A DNA stretch of 64,000 bases. Origin: Trujillonella endophytica (GTDB lineage: Bacteria > Actinomycetota > Actinomycetes > Mycobacteriales > Geodermatophilaceae). Location of the stretch: contig NZ_FOEE01000014.1 of the NCBI RefSeq assembly GCF_900110555.1, forward strand, positions 1 to 64,000, given 5' to 3'. The notes under the pieces were generated by a model. That model saw nothing but the letters and a program-made list of their open reading frames with translations. It made no database searches and was not told where the DNA came from. Below are positions 1 to 6,692 of this stretch, piece after piece. The stretch's first letter is position 1. The number at the start of each line of letters is the position of its first letter. Position numbers and translations under genes: made by a program.

Positions 1-39
1 CGGACAGGACAGTGATGGGCGCCTCTTGCACAGGCTCCT

Positions 40-3000
40 ATGAGGTCACGGACGTCCCGCCCGGTGACGTGCAGGGACGGGGCCACCCCCACACGGCCGA
101 CACATCCCACAGCAGGACAGCAAGGCGTCGGTCAGGCGGAGAGTCAGACCACCAGGGGTGACCCCGTCCTCTCCATCCTCACTGTCAGGCGACGTGGTTC
201 CGGCGACATCGGCGTCGTCGTCGGGGAGGCCGGGACGCACTTCAGGGTCGCTTTCGGTGCGGCCGTCGTCATGCTCGACGGCGAGGAGTTGGACTTCGCG
301 CCGAGAACGCCGGCCGAACTGCTCAGCGACGGCACCCTAGGAGATCCGGAGGCGCACGCTATTCGGATCCAGGCGCACTACCTCCAGCACGCCTACCGCC
401 ACGATCCTCTGGCGAGCCTCACCAACGCTCGTATCGAGCCGCAGATGCACCAGGTATTCGTGGCGCATCGGGTGACCAACAAGCTGCGGCCCCGCATGAT
501 CCTGGCGGATGAGGTAGGTCTCGGTAAGACGATCGAAGCCGGCCTCATCCTCAAGGAGCTGCGGGCGAGGGAGCAGATCTCACGGGTTCTCATCGTGAGC
601 CCGGCGAGTTTGACGCGGCAGTGGCAGACGGAACTAGCGTCGAAGTTCAACGAGAACTTCGAGATCATGGACGGCGCGGCGGCCAAGTACCTGGGAAGAG
701 CGGACGCCAATCCCTTCCTGGCTCGGGACAACGTCATCTGCTCTCTGCCGTTCGCCTACGGAGCGAAGAGGAGCGAGCAGATCCTCGAGGCCGAGTGGGA
801 TCTCGTCATCTTCGACGAGGCCCACAGGGTGCGCCGCACCCGTCAGAAGGAGACTAACGCTTACAAGCTCGCCGACGAGCTCAAGGAGACGACGAACGGT
901 CTCCTCCTCCTGACGGCGACCCCTGTGCAACTCGATCCGTTCGAGCTGTACTCGCTCATCCAGCTGGTCGAGCCCGGCATGTTCCGCAACGAGAAGGCGT
1001 TCGAGCAGCAGCGGTCGAACATCCCGCGGCTCAACGAGCTGATGAAGCAACTCGAGGCGTGGGACACGCTCAGTGCGGACGAGCGCCGAGCCCTCTTCAG
1101 CAAGGAGGGACGACTGCTCGATCACGTGGGTTGCGCTGACTCCGAGACCCTTGCGGACGATCACACTCGGGCCGAAGTCGTCGCGCGTGTCGTCGCCATG
1201 CATCCTCTCGCCGACGTCATGGTCCGGAACCGGAAGGCCGAGCTCGGACTGGCCGGGCGACGGCGGGCGAGTACTGAGTTGGTGGAGCTCTCCGTTGAGG
1301 AGCTAGAGCTGTACGACGATGTCACGGAGTACATCCGTGAGGGCTACAACCGAGCTCGGCTCGACAAGAACACCGCTGTCGGATTCCTGATGGTGGCGTA
1401 CCAGAAGATGTTGACCAGCAGTTCGCATGCTCTGAGGACGAGCTTCCGTCGCCGCATCGCCGCGCTCCAGGGGGATCGTGCCGCGGTGATCGCGCGTGCG
1501 AGGGCAACGGCAAGGTCGCTCGAGGGTGAGCTGGACGACCCCTTCGAGCTGAGCGACCCGACGGAGGAGGCGGCGGCCGTCTTGCTGCACGCCGACTACA
1601 TCGATGTGGAGATCAGGCAGCTGAGCGAGCTGGCTGCTCGTCTCGACCTCGTGCGGGACAGCAAGATGATGAAGGCTGCCGTCGTCTGTGAGCGGATCCT
1701 GCAGGAGCCCGACGCGAAGATCGTCATCTTCACGCAGTTCGTGGAGACGCAGACGTTTCTTGCCAAGACGCTCCGCTCCAATGGCATCGCCACGGCCCTC
1801 TTCAACGGTCGTATGGACGCCGACGAGAAGGAGCAGGCGGTCCGCGAGTTCCGGGAACGAGCTTCGGTGCTCGTCAGCACGGAGGCCGGCGGAGAGGGAC
1901 GGAACCTGCAGTTCGCCAACCATCTGATCAACTTCGACCTGCCGTGGAACCCCATGAAGGTCGAGCAGCGCATCGGTCGACTCGACCGGATCGGCCAGAA
2001 GCGACCGGTCAACATCTACAACCTCGTCGCGCAGGGAACTCTGGAGGAGAGAGTCCTCGAGGTGCTCGCCGTTCGCATCAGGCTGTTCGAGGAGTCGATC
2101 GGCGCGCTCGATCCGATCCTCGGAAGCATCGAGAAGGACATCGAGCGCTTCGCGCTCTCGGACGAGATCAACGGGGACGCGAGCTTCTCGCTGTACTCCG
2201 AGGAGCTCGAGAAGCAGGTCCTGCAAGCGCAGGCGGTCGAGAAGCGGCTGGGTGACTTCGTGCTCGACCGAGCCAGCTTCCGCCGGGATCAGCTCAACGA
2301 GCTTCAGCAGCACGCGTCCATGGCCACGCAAGACGACGTCGCCGAGTACTGCCGCCGCATCCTGGAGTGGAAGGGTGGCTTCCTGAGCGACCACGAGGAC
2401 GGTGGCGACGCCGTCCACCTGTCCCTCGGCGCCATGAACAGCCTCGGACTGCAGGAGAGAAGCTTTCGAGGGGTGTTCGCCACCTCGGAAGCCCTGCGCC
2501 GGGACGATCTGGAGTTCTTCGCCTTCGGCCACGCCCTGGTCGACAAGCTGGTGGCACACGGGGCGGCCCTCGAAGGCGCGACCGTGGGGTGCCGGTACTC
2601 AACCGACGTACCGCCAGGGACCTGGGTGGAGGTCGTCTACGAGACTCGGGTCAGAGGGCTGACGAACCGTGGCTCGCTGGTCCGCCATCTGGTCGGCGAG
2701 AATCTCGCTGTCAGCAGTCAGCGCTTGACCCGCCGACCGGACGACGCGCCCGCAGAGGTCGCTCCCCCCTCCTGGGTCTCCGACGCCGTCGTCGCCAGCC
2801 AGCGCCAGTTCGATGCTCAGTTCCAGGAGCAGCGGCGCACATTCACGCTGGAGTACGAGGACGTTCGCAAAGCTCTGCTGGAGCGTGCGGACAGGCTCTA
2901 CGCCTACAAGAAGGACCGCCTCGAACTGCAGGTCACCCAGGCGCGCGAGTGGCTCGACGCCCGGTCGGGCGGCGACGTCAGCGCCCGGGACCGCAAGGTG

Positions 3001-3150
3001 CTGCCCGCGCGCAAGGGAAAGCTGGCCAAGGACCTCGAGCGGGTGGCGGAGCTTGAGGAGCTGCACCAGCTCGAGTGCGACGACGTCCGACGGCGCGAGC
3101 TGGAGATGGAGTCGACCGTGGCGTGGGCAGCTGTGGTGGTCGGCCGGTGA
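40..3150 (+). CDS. RapA/SNF2-family DEAH helicase
   Basis: Large SNF2-type ATPase, expected to translocate on or remodel nucleic acid in the cytoplasm. Walker A DEVGLGKT lies at about residues 157-164, DEAH at 259-262, LTATP near 294, then the second RecA lobe with TEAGGEGRNL near 614 and QRIGRLDRIGQ near 644. The long C-terminal part (700-1036) is charged and helical with no domain I recognise. Residues 1-42 look unlike the family and the ATG at 40 has no Shine-Dalgarno; GTG 62 is an alternative start. The stop overlaps the next GTG by four bases, so it is co-translated with an Hsp70-like protein. RapA-like transcription recycling is possible, but the partners argue for a defence or stress complex. 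Helicase identity is firm; the role is inference. Confidence 0.88.
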   Translation: MRSRTSRPVTCRDGATPTRPTHPTAGQQGVGQAESQTTRGDPVLSILTVRRRGSGDIGVVVGEAGTHFRVAFGAAVVMLDGEELDFAPRTPAELLSDGTLGDPEAHAIRIQAHYLQHAYRHDPLASLTNARIEPQMHQVFVAHRVTNKLRPRMILADEVGLGKTIEAGLILKELRAREQISRVLIVSPASLTRQWQTELASKFNENFEIMDGAAAKYLGRADANPFLARDNVICSLPFAYGAKRSEQILEAEWDLVIFDEAHRVRRTRQKETNAYKLADELKETTNGLLLLTATPVQLDPFELYSLIQLVEPGMFRNEKAFEQQRSNIPRLNELMKQLEAWDTLSADERRALFSKEGRLLDHVGCADSETLADDHTRAEVVARVVAMHPLADVMVRNRKAELGLAGRRRASTELVELSVEELELYDDVTEYIREGYNRARLDKNTAVGFLMVAYQKMLTSSSHALRTSFRRRIAALQGDRAAVIARARATARSLEGELDDPFELSDPTEEAAAVLLHADYIDVEIRQLSELAARLDLVRDSKMMKAAVVCERILQEPDAKIVIFTQFVETQTFLAKTLRSNGIATALFNGRMDADEKEQAVREFRERASVLVSTEAGGEGRNLQFANHLINFDLPWNPMKVEQRIGRLDRIGQKRPVNIYNLVAQGTLEERVLEVLAVRIRLFEESIGALDPILGSIEKDIERFALSDEINGDASFSLYSEELEKQVLQAQAVEKRLGDFVLDRASFRRDQLNELQQHASMATQDDVAEYCRRILEWKGGFLSDHEDGGDAVHLSLGAMNSLGLQERSFRGVFATSEALRRDDLEFFAFGHALVDKLVAHGAALEGATVGCRYSTDVPPGTWVEVVYETRVRGLTNRGSLVRHLVGENLAVSSQRLTRRPDDAPAEVAPPSWVSDAVVASQRQFDAQFQEQRRTFTLEYEDVRKALLERADRLYAYKKDRLELQVTQAREWLDARSGGDVSARDRKVLPARKGKLAKDLERVAELEELHQLECDDVRRRELEMESTVAWAAVVVGR

Positions 3151-4511
3151 GCCAGGCAGTCGCGTATGGCGTCGACTTCGGGACGAGCAACAGCTCGATC
3201 GCCGTCGCCTACGCGGATGGGACGACGAAGGTCGTGGCCGCAGAGAAATCCGGTGCGCCGGAACTGCGGTCGCTCGTCTACCTCCACCGCGATGGCAACC
3301 GGCTGACTGGGCAGGCTTCGGCGCAGGCGTTCGTCGCGATGGCCACGGCCCAGACATCCTGCGGCACCTGCACCCTCGTGGACCGCGGACGCTCCGGGAC
3401 CTTCACCCAGTGTCGCCAGCACCGCCGGGGTGGGAGCTGCCGGGACAGCCGGCTGCTGGCTCAGATCAAGAGGGATCTTTCGTCCGAGCATCTGGATCGG
3501 ACGAACAGCTGGACCCGCGACTACCGCTTCACCGACCTCGTGGCCGTGATTCTCAAGCGGCTCAAGCGGTCTGCGGACCAGCTCACCGGTCAGGACGTTC
3601 GTACGGTCGCCATCGGTCGACCTGTGCGGTTCCCCGGTGTCGAGTCCGATCCTGTTCGACTGCAGAGCTTGGCGGAGGACCGGCTGCACCAGGCCGCCGT
3701 CAGCGCAGGATTCCGGCACGTCGACCTGGTGCCTGAACCGCAGGCTGCTGTGACGGTCGAGGGCGTGCAAGACGGGATTGTCGTCTGCACCGACTTCGGG
3801 GGCGGCACCTTCGACGTCGCGGTCCTCTCCAAGAGGCGGAACCACGGCAAGGTGCTGGCTCTGGGCGGAGTCACGGTTGGTGGGGAGACGTTCGACAGCC
3901 GGATCTTCGATTTGGAGCTCTTTGCTGCCCTCGGGCTCGACGCGGTGCCGACCATGTCCGGCCCGGAGCGCGTGCGGCTTCCCGGTTGGTTCCGGTCGAA
4001 GTTGCGGTCGCTGGCGGGCTGTCAGGAGCTCCTGATGGACGACCGAGTCGGACCCTTGCTGCGGGACTTGTCTGCAAGCGGCAACTCCCGAGTCGCTGAC
4101 GCCCTCCGTGAGTTGCTCTACGGGGGACAGGCGTGGGCGTGTTTCCAAGCCATCGAACGCGCGAAGATTCAGCTGTCGAGCCAGTACGAGGCGCGCCTGG
4201 TCCTGCGTCGCCCACCGCATCTCGACATCGATGTGGTCGTGGAGCGGTCGGAATTCGAGGATGCCATCGCCGCCGAGCTCGCCCGCGTGGAGGCTTGCAT
4301 CCTCGAAACCCTCGAGAAGGCGGGCGTGACGCCGACCGAGGTGAGCTACGTGACCCGGACCGGAGGTTCGTCGCGCATCCCGGCGTTCGAGGCGATGCTC
4401 GGTTTTCGCTTCGGCGCCGGGAACGTCGTCGATCGAGATGCCTTCACCACCGTCGTTACAGGCTTGGCGCAGTACGCCCACGGGTCTTGGCAGGAGCGGA
4501 GAGGCGCGTGA
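3147..4511 (+). CDS. Hsp70-like ATPase domain protein, no substrate-binding domain
   Basis: 454 residues forming only an actin/Hsp70-type nucleotide-binding fold. Phosphate-1 motif DFGTSNSS lies at 10-17, phosphate-2 DFGGGTFDVAV near 216, adenosine motif TGGSSRIP near 405. DnaK is about 600 residues; here the beta-sandwich substrate domain and lid are absent. Cysteines 72, 75, 89 and 98 (C-x2-C-x13-C-x8-C) sit in an insertion in subdomain I that could bind zinc. Starts at GTG in a GTGA overlap with the helicase stop and ends in another GTGA overlap with the next small gene, so the three are one translational unit. Probably an ATP-driven switch for the helicase rather than a general chaperone (inference). 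Confidence 0.85.
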   Translation: MSQAVAYGVDFGTSNSSIAVAYADGTTKVVAAEKSGAPELRSLVYLHRDGNRLTGQASAQAFVAMATAQTSCGTCTLVDRGRSGTFTQCRQHRRGGSCRDSRLLAQIKRDLSSEHLDRTNSWTRDYRFTDLVAVILKRLKRSADQLTGQDVRTVAIGRPVRFPGVESDPVRLQSLAEDRLHQAAVSAGFRHVDLVPEPQAAVTVEGVQDGIVVCTDFGGGTFDVAVLSKRRNHGKVLALGGVTVGGETFDSRIFDLELFAALGLDAVPTMSGPERVRLPGWFRSKLRSLAGCQELLMDDRVGPLLRDLSASGNSRVADALRELLYGGQAWACFQAIERAKIQLSSQYEARLVLRRPPHLDIDVVVERSEFEDAIAAELARVEACILETLEKAGVTPTEVSYVTRTGGSSRIPAFEAMLGFRFGAGNVVDRDAFTTVVTGLAQYAHGSWQERRGA

Positions 4512-4696
4512 ACGAGCCGTACGTCCCTACGGGCGAGGAGTTCGACGAGGGCAAGTTGCCTCAGCGGCCACGCCCTGAGAGGACTGCGAAAGAACCGGAC
4601 CGAACGCACCTGGCGGACCGTGCCCGACGGGTGCGCGAGTTCGTGCTGGAAGTCAGTCCGGACGTCGACGCGACGGAGCCGCGGCCGGAGCGCTGA
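4508..4696 (+). CDS. small charged protein, third gene of helicase-Hsp70 unit
   Basis: 62-residue protein rich in Glu, Asp, Arg and Pro, with no cysteine, signal peptide or membrane segment. The only predicted ordered part is a short amphipathic stretch (LADRARRVREFVLEV). It starts at GTG inside the stop of the Hsp70-like gene (GTGA), the same coupling used upstream, which is the best reason to believe it. I do not recognise a family. It could be an adaptor linking the Hsp70-like ATPase to the helicase, but that is only suggested by the coupling. Confidence 0.6.
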   Translation: MNEPYVPTGEEFDEGKLPQRPRPERTAKEPDRTHLADRARRVREFVLEVSPDVDATEPRPER

Positions 4697-5019
4697 CGCC
4701 GCTGACGTCGACGCTCCTGGCGGCACGTCGGCCCTCGCGTCGAACGCGAACCCCTAGCGACTGAGACGGCGGAAGCGAACGGCCCCGAGACCGTCGACCA
4801 CAGGCGGCTCCGCTTTCACTCGCGATGGCCAGCAGGTGTCGCTCGTCAGTGTCCTGGTTGACGCGTGTCAGTCTTCATGTGAGTCCCCGTGCAACTGGCG
4901 CGGGCAACCCGGTACGAGTGCTCAGTCGTCGACCGGGCGCAGGCCCCGAGTCAGGAGAGAAGTCGGTCTCTTGTTGCAGCCGGCTCGGTACGCGCACAAA
5001 TACTTCGAGGAGTGGGGCC
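4697..5019 (+). other. intergenic region, possible promoter at its end
   Basis: 323 bases without a supportable gene. The last 50 bases hold a weak promoter-like arrangement (TTGCAG followed about 18 bases later by AAATAC) and an AGGAG at 5008-5012 that serves the gene starting at 5020. No strong hairpin follows the small gene at 4696, so read-through from the helicase unit is possible. Confidence 0.3.
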
Positions 5020-6171
5020 GTGGAAACGCAGTTCACCCGCAGCGGGCCGGGACAGTCGTGGCGTCTCGCCTACCAGATCCTGGGCAGCGACGGGTCGATT
5101 CCGAATCCTCGCGGAATCCGCTACATCGCTCCCGGTTCAGCTGAGGCCGAGGGGCTCGGTCTGCCTTCGCCCGCGCGCCCCCTCCCGCCGCTACCGGCGG
5201 ACGCTTCCGCAGTCATGGGGGCGGTCCAACTCGCCAATCTCGGCATCGGCGTCGTAAACCTCGCAATCTCGACGGCTGTCCTGGTCGAGGTGAAGAAGCA
5301 GACCCGCATGCTCCGGGAACTCCAGGTCGGGCTCACTGAGGTCCGGGCCGGGGTCAGCGACATCCTGGAGAGGACGGAGCGCATCGACCTCAACGTCGCG
5401 GAGGTGCAGCTCCGCGAGACGCTCAAGCATGCGCTGAGGTCGGCAGCCAAGGACCATGAGGTCGACCTGGTTCTGTTGACCCAATTGGTTCGTGGGGCTC
5501 TCGGTCGGTTCTTCGAGTCGATCGGTGGACCCCTCGGTCCAGGAACCAAGCGAGACCTCACGCTCTCCTCGGACGTGCGCGAGATGGCGGAGGCCGCACT
5601 CCACCTCCTCTGGGCGGCCCGCTTGACCGCCATCGAGGCGCACAACCGGTCCTGCGGCGGTGACCCGCTGCAGGTCGTCCGCGACGACGGGGTGCAGAAC
5701 CGCCTCCGGACGCTCGCGGACACCGCAGCGCTCGTGGCTGCCACCGGAGTCGCCAAGCAGATGGCCAAGAGAGTCAGCAAGGACCTGCGCAGCAACCGGC
5801 TGTTCTTCGGGCGCGCCGATGGCGTCCTCCGCGTCATGGACGAGCACGTGGCACGCCTCGACACCTCTCTGAACAGTCTCGGTCCCGTTCCTCAGGCCCG
5901 GTCGCTGCTGGCGGAGCTCGAGGACCAGGAAGTCCTGGTCGAGGCCCGTAAGGTCGGCGCGGATGCGGTGAGTGCCGTGCTCGGTGACTACCTCTTGGCC
6001 TGGACGGCTCACACCGATGCCGGCCTGTTGTGGAGACTCTGCTACGAACTCGACCTGCAAGACGATGGGACCTACTGGCGTGGGCTCGAGGGCTGGATGA
6101 CAGCGTTGATGCCTGGGGCGGCGGATTCACCACTCGGCATCTCCCGTGGTGTCCCTGAACCCGTGGGCTGA
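5020..6171 (+). CDS. unknown protein with hydrophobic segment and coiled coil
   Basis: 383 residues. GTG 5020 is chosen over the upstream open frame because AGGAG sits eight bases before it. Residues 1-60 are soluble and Pro-rich toward the end. Residues 64-90 form one hydrophobic, Gly/Ala/Val-rich helix, 90-130 look like a coiled coil (VKKQTRMLRELQVGLTEV), and the rest is helical with many Leu/Arg/Glu. There is no catalytic motif. This architecture resembles membrane-tethered effector or sensor proteins, but I do not recognise the family. It follows the helicase-Hsp70 unit on the same strand after 323 bases and precedes a gene remnant, so it may be a fourth component or a separate cargo gene. 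Confidence 0.7.
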   Translation: METQFTRSGPGQSWRLAYQILGSDGSIPNPRGIRYIAPGSAEAEGLGLPSPARPLPPLPADASAVMGAVQLANLGIGVVNLAISTAVLVEVKKQTRMLRELQVGLTEVRAGVSDILERTERIDLNVAEVQLRETLKHALRSAAKDHEVDLVLLTQLVRGALGRFFESIGGPLGPGTKRDLTLSSDVREMAEAALHLLWAARLTAIEAHNRSCGGDPLQVVRDDGVQNRLRTLADTAALVAATGVAKQMAKRVSKDLRSNRLFFGRADGVLRVMDEHVARLDTSLNSLGPVPQARSLLAELEDQEVLVEARKVGADAVSAVLGDYLLAWTAHTDAGLLWRLCYELDLQDDGTYWRGLEGWMTALMPGAADSPLGISRGVPEPVG

Positions 6172-6288
6172 AGCCACGACGCAGACAAAAAATCGGCCTT
6201 TTCGAGATGCTCTAAGGCAACCCATCGGCGATGTCGGCGGCGGCGTGCGCGGACGAGCCCGCCGCGTAGCCGACCTGAGCGATCGCTG

Positions 6289-6692
6289 CAGGGCCGCGGC
6301 TGGGTGGACGCCGACGGCGTGCAGGCGCGCATCGGCCCGGACGACGTGCTCGTCGCGCCGTACAACAACCAGGGCCGTACAACAACCAGGTCGGGCTGAT
6401 CCGGTCGCTGCTGCCGGACGGCGCCCGGGTCGGCACCGTGGACAAGTTCCAGGGGCAGGAGGCGCCGGTCGTCATCTACTCGATGACCTCGACCAGCGCG
6501 GAGGACGCCCCGCGCGGCGTCTCGTTCCTCTACGACCTGCACCGGCTCAACGTCGCGGTCTCCCGGGCGAAGGCGCTGGCGGTCGTGGTGATGAGCGAGG
6601 AACTGCTGGGCGCCGCGGTGCGGACACCGGAGCAGCTGCGCCAGGTCAATGCGCTGTGTCGACTCGTCGAGATGGCGACCGTCGTCGATTGA
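6289..6692 (+). pseudogene. C-terminal remnant of superfamily 1 helicase, frameshifted
   Basis: The translation contains the end of a UvrD/Dna2-like helicase of the kind fused to RecB-like nucleases: GRGWVDADG and IGPDDVLVAPYNNQ in one frame, then VGTVDKFQGQEAPVV (motif V) and LNVAVSRAK (motif VI) in another. The frames are separated by a 17-bp tandem duplication at 6358-6390. The upstream ATPase lobe and any nuclease domain are absent, so this is a decayed 3-prime end. Its place beside the helicase-Hsp70 island suggests it marks an old recombination boundary. Confidence 0.75.
6358..6390 (+). repeat. 17-bp-period tandem duplication causing a frameshift
   Basis: The 16-mer ccgtacaacaaccagg occurs at 6358-6373 and again at 6375-6390. 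Removing one 17-base unit restores a continuous reading frame through PYNNQVGLIRSLL, which shows directly that the duplication broke the helicase frame. Confidence 0.9.

Follow-up and report, generated by a model that had tools for sequence, protein, structure and literature searches.

In the window, i.e., the 64,000 nucleotides that begin contig NZ_FOEE01000014.1 of Trujillonella endophytica, we have found three overlapping genes, here called D, E and F, which we consider with moderate confidence to be a horizontally exchanged module, probably directed against phages or plasmids, in which a translocase would be gated by an Hsp70-like ATPase. The gene order, the overlaps and several motifs are conserved among the relatives, the distribution is patchy, some copies lie within defence islands, and in one genome the site is empty.

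The three genes and the left edge of the contig

The features of the region are as follows.

1..190, minus strand: end of an IS110-family element, whose transposase reads away from the helicase gene
190..3150, plus strand: gene D, RapA/DrmD/BrxHI-like SNF2 helicase, 5'-truncated; the open frame runs into the IS, with an ATG at 40 (ORF 40-3150)
3147..4511, plus strand: gene E, 454 aa, an Hsp70 ATPase domain that has no substrate-binding domain; its GTG start overlaps the D stop
3360..3440, plus strand: four-cysteine insert of E (C72, C75, C89, C98), from cysteine conservation
4508..4696, plus strand: gene F, 62 aa, with the motifs PTGxExDxG and EVxP; its GTG start overlaps the E stop
5020..6171, plus strand: ORF of no recognised family, 383 aa from the GTG at 5020 (the frame opens at 4825)
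6237..6692, plus strand: remnant of an AAA_12 helicase gene, 3' end (AAA_12 E 6.6e-12)

The sequence-only reading had described three genes joined by two GTGA overlaps, and this is exact at both joints (40-3150, 3147-4511, 4508-4696). The lower GC content that it had noticed is also confirmed: 190-4693 has 65.9%, versus a mean of 74.4% (range 72.3–77.2%) in 103 windows of equal length taken from 8–64 kb of the window.

Gene D contains the Pfam domains SNF2-rel_dom (3e-26) and Helicase_C (5.7e-23), and an alignment with three relatives supports its assignment. RapA, the E. coli RNA polymerase recycling factor, resembles D in the SNF2 core, the length and, partially, the C-terminal part. It is the best NCBIfam match (345 bits) and, among solved structures, the one closest in sequence (E 6e-64), and the Pfam RapA_C score, 19.9 in the window, reaches 39.2 in Modestobacter lapidis, over the cutoff of 26.8. 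These likenesses would suit a horizontally spread pair for transcription or stress recovery, made of a RapA-like RNA-polymerase recycler and its own Hsp70 helper, which we nevertheless regard as unlikely. D stays far under the RapA equivalog cutoff (NF003426, 576 bits), as does the Prauserella copy with 364 bits, and it scores comparably for DrmD (NCBIfam, 294 bits, under the cutoff of 610) and BrxHI (PADLOC model, 375 bits). Moreover, unlike RapA, D overlaps an Hsp70 gene and is accessory rather than core.

Gene E scores 91.4 bits against Pfam HSP70 (PF00012), over the gathering cutoff of 20.6, and keeps the phosphate-1, phosphate-2 and adenosine motifs of the nucleotide site. It reaches neither the cutoff of DnaK TIGR02350 (90.7 versus 822.55 bits) nor that of YegD NF008673 (116.3 versus 331 bits). 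The absence of a substrate domain, as read earlier, is confirmed: the protein stops after the ATPase domain in all five full-length copies. E. coli YegD is of similar size and likewise has no substrate domain, but it does not have the four-cysteine insert, and no SNF2 gene adjoins it in K-12. All four cysteines are present in 6/6 E proteins but not in the Hsp70s compared with them (YegD, one DnaK and two more); the insert may form a metal-binding hairpin. Homologues of F stand at the equivalent position in four other loci, with nine invariant columns, and both short motifs are invariant. For D and E, dN/dS values of 0.07–0.17 in six comparisons indicate purifying selection; in F the sites are too few to give a reliable value.

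Base 1 of the window is base 1 of the contig, and the contig end falls inside an IS110-type repeat. Bases 1-190 are the terminal part of this repeat, which is matched in five further contigs of the genome (96–100% identical), always within about 550 bases of the contig end; in one of the five, the start of a DEDD transposase ORF adjoins the repeat (Pfam DEDD_Tnp_IS110, E 3.4e-11). The segment at 1-190 is probably the left, non-coding end of the element. Repeat comparison and alignment with relatives place the boundary between the IS and gene D at ~190, and nucleotide similarity with the relatives starts at base 188, i.e., at codon ~13 of the M. lapidis gene. Since bases 1-190 are repeat, the ATG at 40 is IS sequence and not the native start of the helicase that it had been taken for. 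Gene D is 5'-truncated by the IS, and about its first dozen codons are gone.

Probably the unit of this T. endophytica strain is either crippled or driven from within the IS. That it is a dead fragment, a mere relic beside an IS element, seems improbable to us: the position of the IS110 end within D would suit this, as would the finding of no promoter-like site in 1-5000 by a scan for sigma-70-type sites only, but the frames of D, E and F are all open, and D retains an in-frame ATG inside the IS. In addition, the four other D-E-F copies that were read completely have frames open from end to end, and therefore this reading concerns the strain, not the module.

Distribution and genomic neighbourhoods

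Gene E was found in six genomes overall, two of them from one genus. Counting the window's own genome, the family has 3 carriers among 112 genomes and the order 4 among 387; in the class draw the only carrier among 296 genomes is that of the window, and the phylum draw gave 2 of 296. A pattern scan of genome contigs gave three loci, and is not a census because the patterns are narrow. The family count and the two draws rule out a housekeeping operon; the unit occurs in few, scattered genomes. The search in actinomycete genomes that the sequence-only reading had proposed came out mostly in its favour: D and E stand together in all six loci, overlapping by GTGA in four and by ATGA in two, and F is present in all five readable loci, where it always overlaps E.

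Among the five loci with readable flanks, three have known or candidate defence genes. Azaca genes (zacABC) lie in the D-E-F island of both M. lapidis, where D-E-F adjoins zacA-zacB-zacC with about 470 bp between the two sets, and M. caceresii, whose island also has a PDC-S37-like helicase and a type IV restriction enzyme. The island of Prauserella includes an MTase, McrBC and a UvrD helicase; the McrBC genes form a pair apart from the unit, on the opposite strand, and ARMADA-type genes lie close by on the other strand, with an SNF2 gene of their own. No recognised defence gene was seen on either side of the G922 unit (read by eye) or among the window ORFs tested beside the unit. The suggestion of an anti-phage or anti-plasmid island thus finds support at three loci, but not at G922 or in the window, where D is moreover cut by the IS. 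From these neighbourhoods we infer a defence role for D-E-F. As to the transcription or stress pair, the G922 unit is outside any defence cluster seen, in agreement with it, whereas the patchy distribution and the three defence clusters argue against it.

The empty site is that of G338, of the same genus as a carrier: the island is 91–94% identical and has no trio, with 1.1 kb where the carrier has a 6.8-kb segment containing D-E-F.

The closeness to Azaca raises the possibility that D-E-F serves as an extension or regulator of zacABC, without a function by itself. ZacC is found in 2 of 4 carriers versus 17 of 387 genomes of the order (hypergeometric 0.010, a value that treats two draws as the same set and leaves kinship uncorrected, both ZacC carriers being Modestobacter). 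Against this, 15 of 17 zacC loci have no trio (16–20 kb read; two end at the contig end), the window's genome has no ZacC match, and no zac gene was read around the Prauserella, G922 and window units except a 44-residue helicase-motif match. We think it quite improbable that the module is such an accessory; it is a neighbour of Azaca in two Modestobacter islands, with a different gene set.

Downstream of the trio, the ORF at 5020..6171 has no family within the cutoffs of PADLOC, NCBIfam and PHROGs and one Pfam match below cutoff, and no convincing counterpart was seen in the loci of three relatives. The remnant at 6237..6692 is the final ~440 bp of a helicase gene, 76–81% identical to the gene ends of three relatives (G346, G887 and G406), in which the open lengths are 1091, 1096 and 1127 codons. 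The gene remnant that had been read as closing the low-GC stretch is real, but sits further on; it likely marks the edge of a replaced chromosome segment.

In viral contigs, E gave 36 Hsp70 matches at 22–30% identity, many of them as long as DnaK (30 ORFs selected), and none has a relative of D in its locus (E 1e-4). The cysteine region of E gave no viral match, and D gave two distant helicases. Among plasmids, 162 records have general Hsp70s at less than 60% identity, and the cysteine region gave no plasmid match.

Known systems and a second helicase pairing

By profile scores, D belongs to the same helicase group as DrmD of DISARM and BrxHI of BREX, with which it has the defence context in common. 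DISARM combines DrmD with drmA, drmB and drmC, and BREX has pglZ, brxC and a methylase beside brxH. Among the window ORFs tested (5 against PADLOC and 8 against Pfam), neither drmA/drmB/drmC nor pglZ, brxC or a methylase was found, the upstream side being unassembled. ARMADA (PMC12458937) is one operon of a BrxHII-like helicase, a PglX-like methylase and a YprA-like helicase; ArmA, by this description, and BrxHII of BREX are also among the nearest known counterparts of D. The ARMADA gene set is not in the D-E-F unit. In comparison with all three systems, the module has no methylase, YprA helicase, drmA/B/C or pglZ, and has an Hsp70-type partner in their place. As to the earlier statement that it is none of the named systems, PADLOC gave nothing for E and F even with E values up to 1, and D matches models of helicase relatives (BrxHI, DrmD and HmaA, among the best 25 of 50 matches).

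Hsp70-like ATPases have been described in other predicted conflict systems. In the CoCoNuT systems (PMC11090510), an Hsp70 domain fused to McrB or McrC, or standing as CnuD, belongs to predicted restriction systems with SWI2/SNF2 genes sometimes near, and membership is defined by an NxD McrB GTPase with a McrC-type partner. No McrB GTPase or HEPN is recognised in D-E-F, and CoCoNuT identity is ruled out because McrB/McrC are missing from the unit. In GTPase-centred conflict systems, according to PMC7159879, the HSP70 is sometimes without the peptide-binding domain, an ATPase domain alone as in E, but the core partners are GTPases, tubulin or GrpE, whereas that of E is a RapA-like helicase.

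Plasmid relatives of D were found in 1038 records, of which 40 were listed and 8 of these read. Five of the eight have a gene for a methylase or DUF1156 next to them, in one case together with a BREX-3 pglZ. Behind another, from an Aeromonas plasmid, come genes for an AAA ATPase and DUF4276 and then a methylase. A second, separate SNF2 lineage is paired with a putative actin/Hsp70-fold protein in three alphaproteobacterial loci, and one of these pairs adjoins McrBC and Hachiman. The fold of this partner is supported with moderate confidence: hhalign probability rises from 5% with one row to 19% with two and 94% (E 1.9e-7) with three, over 44 columns only, while no Pfam match passes the cutoff and the PDB gives no match of weight (best Ta0583, an actin-like protein, E 0.055). 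The partner has no match in viral contigs. One partner weakly matches PDC-M61B (E 3.6e-4); PDC-M61A (482 positions) matched 0/5 records, a weak negative as the controls were silent too, and PDC-M61 was rejected.

The first tree of D (16 rows) joined long branches. In the second (17 rows; the Prauserella methylase-operon SNF2 dropped and two rows added), a single clade of both paired helicase groups is rejected with p-AU 5e-5, which is optimistic because the taxa are few and the group was named after the first tree. The pairing of SNF2 with an actin/Hsp70-fold protein has probably arisen twice.

The alphaproteobacterial pairs also bear on whether the module helps mobile elements to be maintained or transferred, E then acting as a motor or filament in the manner of actin. 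Two pairs are plasmid-borne, in Aminobacter and, near parAB and mobC, in Sphingobium, both plasmids being typed as conjugative; that of Shinella lies between recombinase and integrase genes, and IS110 is beside the window copy. On the other hand, no plasmid gene was noticed by eye beside the actinobacterial copies, and E resembles Hsp70 and YegD, with a weak partition-family match (PHROG, E 4e-4) and an MreB match below that of Hsp70. We consider such a role very unlikely.

Proposed mechanism and its meaning

Returning to the defence module, D, as a member of the RapA/DrmD/BrxHI group, would use ATP to translocate along double-stranded DNA, and E would be a nucleotide switch of the Hsp70 type that has no substrate domain. 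Judging from motifs, the four-cysteine insert of E probably binds zinc, plus nucleic acid or D, and F, largely without structure, may be an adaptor that docks to E and/or D through its two short motifs. The nucleotide state of E might then decide whether D is kept inactive or loaded onto foreign DNA, where D would strip or block RNA polymerase or replication proteins. This last step is proposed because no nuclease or methylase domain has been recognised in the module, nor has any other effector in D, E or F.

More broadly, and only tentatively, Hsp70/actin-fold-gated translocases of the RapA/DrmD type might be a recurring nuclease-less immune class that evolved at least twice. Its members would be the actinobacterial module, in which the Hsp70 has four cysteines and the motif protein stands apart, and the alphaproteobacterial pairs, with a DrmD-type helicase and an actin-like ATPase that has an N-terminal tail. 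The recurrence of SNF2 with a putative actin/Hsp70-fold ATPase in two helicase lineages makes this idea directly testable, and suggests that some PADLOC-scored DrmD genes are not parts of DISARM. To our knowledge, an SNF2-type translocase and an Hsp70-type ATPase are not known to work as a pair in immunity. If the module does defend, it would do so by means of a translocase and an Hsp70-type switch, with no nuclease or methylase recognised among its parts.

The D-E-F unit and its proteins

We have annotated five features at this end of the window, where D is a RapA/DrmD/BrxHI-like helicase gene, E an Hsp70 ATPase-domain gene and F a 62-aa gene.

Features of the D-E-F stretch in the window
40-3150, + strand: D, SNF2-type helicase ORF with SNF2 and Helicase_C domains (Pfam)
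3147-4511, + strand: E, Hsp70-family ORF (HSP70 match of 91.4 bits, cutoff 20.6, Pfam)
4508-4696, + strand: F, small ORF with a GTGA overlap with E
4825-6171: family-less ORF separating the trio from the helicase remnant
6237-6692: AAA_12 helicase gene remnant, 3' end

The sequence-only reading had described a trio coupled by two GTGA overlaps in a less GC-rich stretch that ends at a gene remnant, and this description holds: GTGA is present at both the D/E and the E/F joints, the GC content is 65.9% across 190-4693 vs 72.3 to 77.2% in 103 same-length windows from 8-64 kb, and the remnant is what is left, at the 3' end, of an AAA_12 helicase gene, with 1091, 1096 and 1127 open codons in the three relatives read. 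The ORF at 4825-6171 shows nothing above cutoff in Pfam, NCBIfam, PADLOC or PHROGs, and F has no matches in Pfam, PADLOC or PHROGs. Nuclease and methylase domains were not found in D, E and F with Pfam and PADLOC, nor in D and E with NCBIfam.

An alignment with three relatives covers the length of D, including the helicase motifs. E retains the nucleotide-binding motifs and stops after the ATPase domain, which agrees with the earlier description of an Hsp70 ATPase without a substrate domain. Its residues 72 to 98 form C-x2-C-x(13-21)-C-x8-C, a putative zinc site, with the four cysteines found in all six E proteins but lacking from YegD, a DnaK and two other Hsp70s, the four proteins used for comparison. 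For F, an alignment of five sequences reveals 9 invariant columns in two motifs, PTGxExDxG and EVxP. Both D and E are constrained, with dN/dS values of 0.07-0.17, synonymous sites being close to saturation.

Distribution and genomic neighbourhoods

E is rare. Searches with E at E-value limits of 1e-25 to 1e-40 found it in 2/296 genomes of the phylum draw, 1/296 of the class draw, 3/298 and 4/387 in two draws of the order, 3/112 of the family, 2/200 of Prauserella's family and 1/3 of the class of genome G042; the draws overlap, and all except the last two include the window's own genome. Six distinct carriers were obtained, i.e., the window, Modestobacter caceresii (G385), M. lapidis (G887), Prauserella shujinwangii (G537), G922 and G042. 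The gene order is conserved, as the sequence-only reading had suggested checking: the D/E overlap is 4 bases long in 6/6 carriers, and the E/F overlap 4 or 8 bases long in the 5/5 whose sequence continues (the G042 piece stops inside E, and the M. lapidis contig within F).

That reading had also proposed looking for defence genes nearby, and these are present at three of the five D-E-F loci with readable flanks. In M. lapidis, where only the upstream side is readable, ZacA, ZacB and ZacC of the known defence system Azaca precede the trio co-directionally. M. caceresii has a PDC-S37/Hhe-like helicase separated by two small ORFs from D-E-F, after which come a type IV restriction enzyme and then zacCBA. 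The Prauserella trio is flanked on one side by an Eco57I-type methylase, an Imm1-like gene, McrB, McrC and a UvrD helicase, and on the other by an SMC-like ATPase; further out lie a second SNF2 gene and a kinase-helicase with an MrfA Zn-binding domain. No defence genes were recognised beside the other two loci: in G922 the ORFs, judged by eye, are respiratory-complex and RuBisCO-like genes at one flank and a transporter at the opposite flank, and the window has the family-less ORF and the helicase remnant downstream. Within the Prauserella island (L048, L065), the kinase-fused helicase with its MrfA domain, SNF2, methylase, Imm1-like, McrBC and UvrD helicase genes are co-directional, a row resembling ARMADA/DISARM operons but with McrBC inside it.

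G338, a congener of M. caceresii, shares its island (91-94% identity) but lacks D-E-F there; the distance between the shared flanks is 1.1 kb there vs 6.8 kb in M. caceresii. Azaca, listed through ZacC with helicase-bearing defence systems in PMC12278908, does not depend on D-E-F, since ZacC occurs in 17/387 genomes of the order and only 2/17 zacC loci (15, two of them ending at a contig end, plus two from Modestobacter) have D-E-F. The stretches read around the trio in Prauserella, G922 and the window contain no zac genes, except for a 44-residue helicase-motif match.

Separately, a conserved gene of ~600 aa, starting with AKLVFLHGVGDG and hydrolase-like by eye, lies ahead of zacA in 5/6 ZacC-bearing genomes of the family (L064:3002-4786, L063:6725-8554, L084, L085, L088) and was not seen at the other 12 zacC loci read, two of them cut; it is a possible fourth Azaca gene. 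Downstream of Azaca in G885 (L085:8130-13498), another SNF2 gene overlaps a UvrD-like helicase gene.

The IS110 end and the 5' side of D

Base 1 of the window is base 1 of its contig. The first ~190 bases are repeated in five further contigs (L002-L006), each time near a contig end, so that this IS110-type repeat has at least six copies including window 1-190. Similarity to the Modestobacter genes starts only at base 188, around codon 13 of M. lapidis D, and the ATG at 40 therefore lies inside the IS. The native first codons of D are missing from this copy, and presumably its native promoter as well; a scan limited to sigma-70-type sites gave no promoter in window 1-5000. We infer that the window's D-E-F copy is crippled, or else driven by the IS. 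In one of the five other contigs an IS110-type transposase start adjoins the repeat, at its end distal to the helicase gene, and thus the window probably holds the non-coding IS end. IS110 bridge RNAs sit at the non-coding end of the element.

Related pairings and proposed mechanism

Eight plasmid relatives of D were opened from the 40 listed among 1038 matching records. A methylase or DUF1156 gene adjoins the relative in five of them, with a small hypothetical gene intervening in one and BREX-3 pglZ also adjoining in one. The Aeromonas relative is followed by an AAA ATPase, a DUF4276 gene and a methylase, the Deinococcus relative has neither arrangement, and the eighth is from Sphingobium.

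An SNF2 gene in each of Sphingobium fuliginis, Aminobacter and Shinella fits one PADLOC DrmD model along almost its whole length, and a partner gene overlaps it or follows within 13 bases.

Alphaproteobacterial pairs of an SNF2 gene (DrmD model) and a probable actin/Hsp70-fold ATPase gene
L104:3698-8571
L107:4364-9332
L108:5577-10329

The partner proteins (537-589 aa) contain Hsp70/actin-like motifs, first recognised by eye, and the hhalign probability against the E alignment rose from 5% with one partner sequence and 19% with two to 94%, over 44 columns, with three; an actin/Hsp70 fold is probable on this sequence evidence. McrBC and Hachiman adjoin the Aminobacter pair, and the Shinella pair is flanked by a recombinase gene and, on the opposite side, an integrase gene. 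No further DISARM genes are annotated beside L104 and L107 (the L108 record carries no annotation).

In a tree of 17 helicases, a small set with long branches, D (5 rows) forms one group with support of 99/99, separate from the alphaproteobacterial paired helicases. A single clade of both paired groups, a grouping defined after an initial tree had been seen, was rejected (p-AU 5e-5), and the SNF2 + Hsp70/actin-type pairing has therefore probably arisen twice.

By helicase, D-E-F is closest to RapA, DrmD, BrxHI and ArmA (the last by its description in PMC12458937), and by the use of Hsp70 domains in conflict systems, to CoCoNuTs and GTPase-HSP70 systems (PMC11090510, PMC7159879). Titles, abstract openings and selected passages of open-licence papers yielded no description of a system that pairs an SNF2 helicase with an Hsp70 ATPase, which is weak evidence of novelty. 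As a proposal, D would most likely act as a translocase along DNA, E would switch or load it according to nucleotide state, and F would connect the two, with the outcome that polymerases on invading DNA would be removed or blocked.
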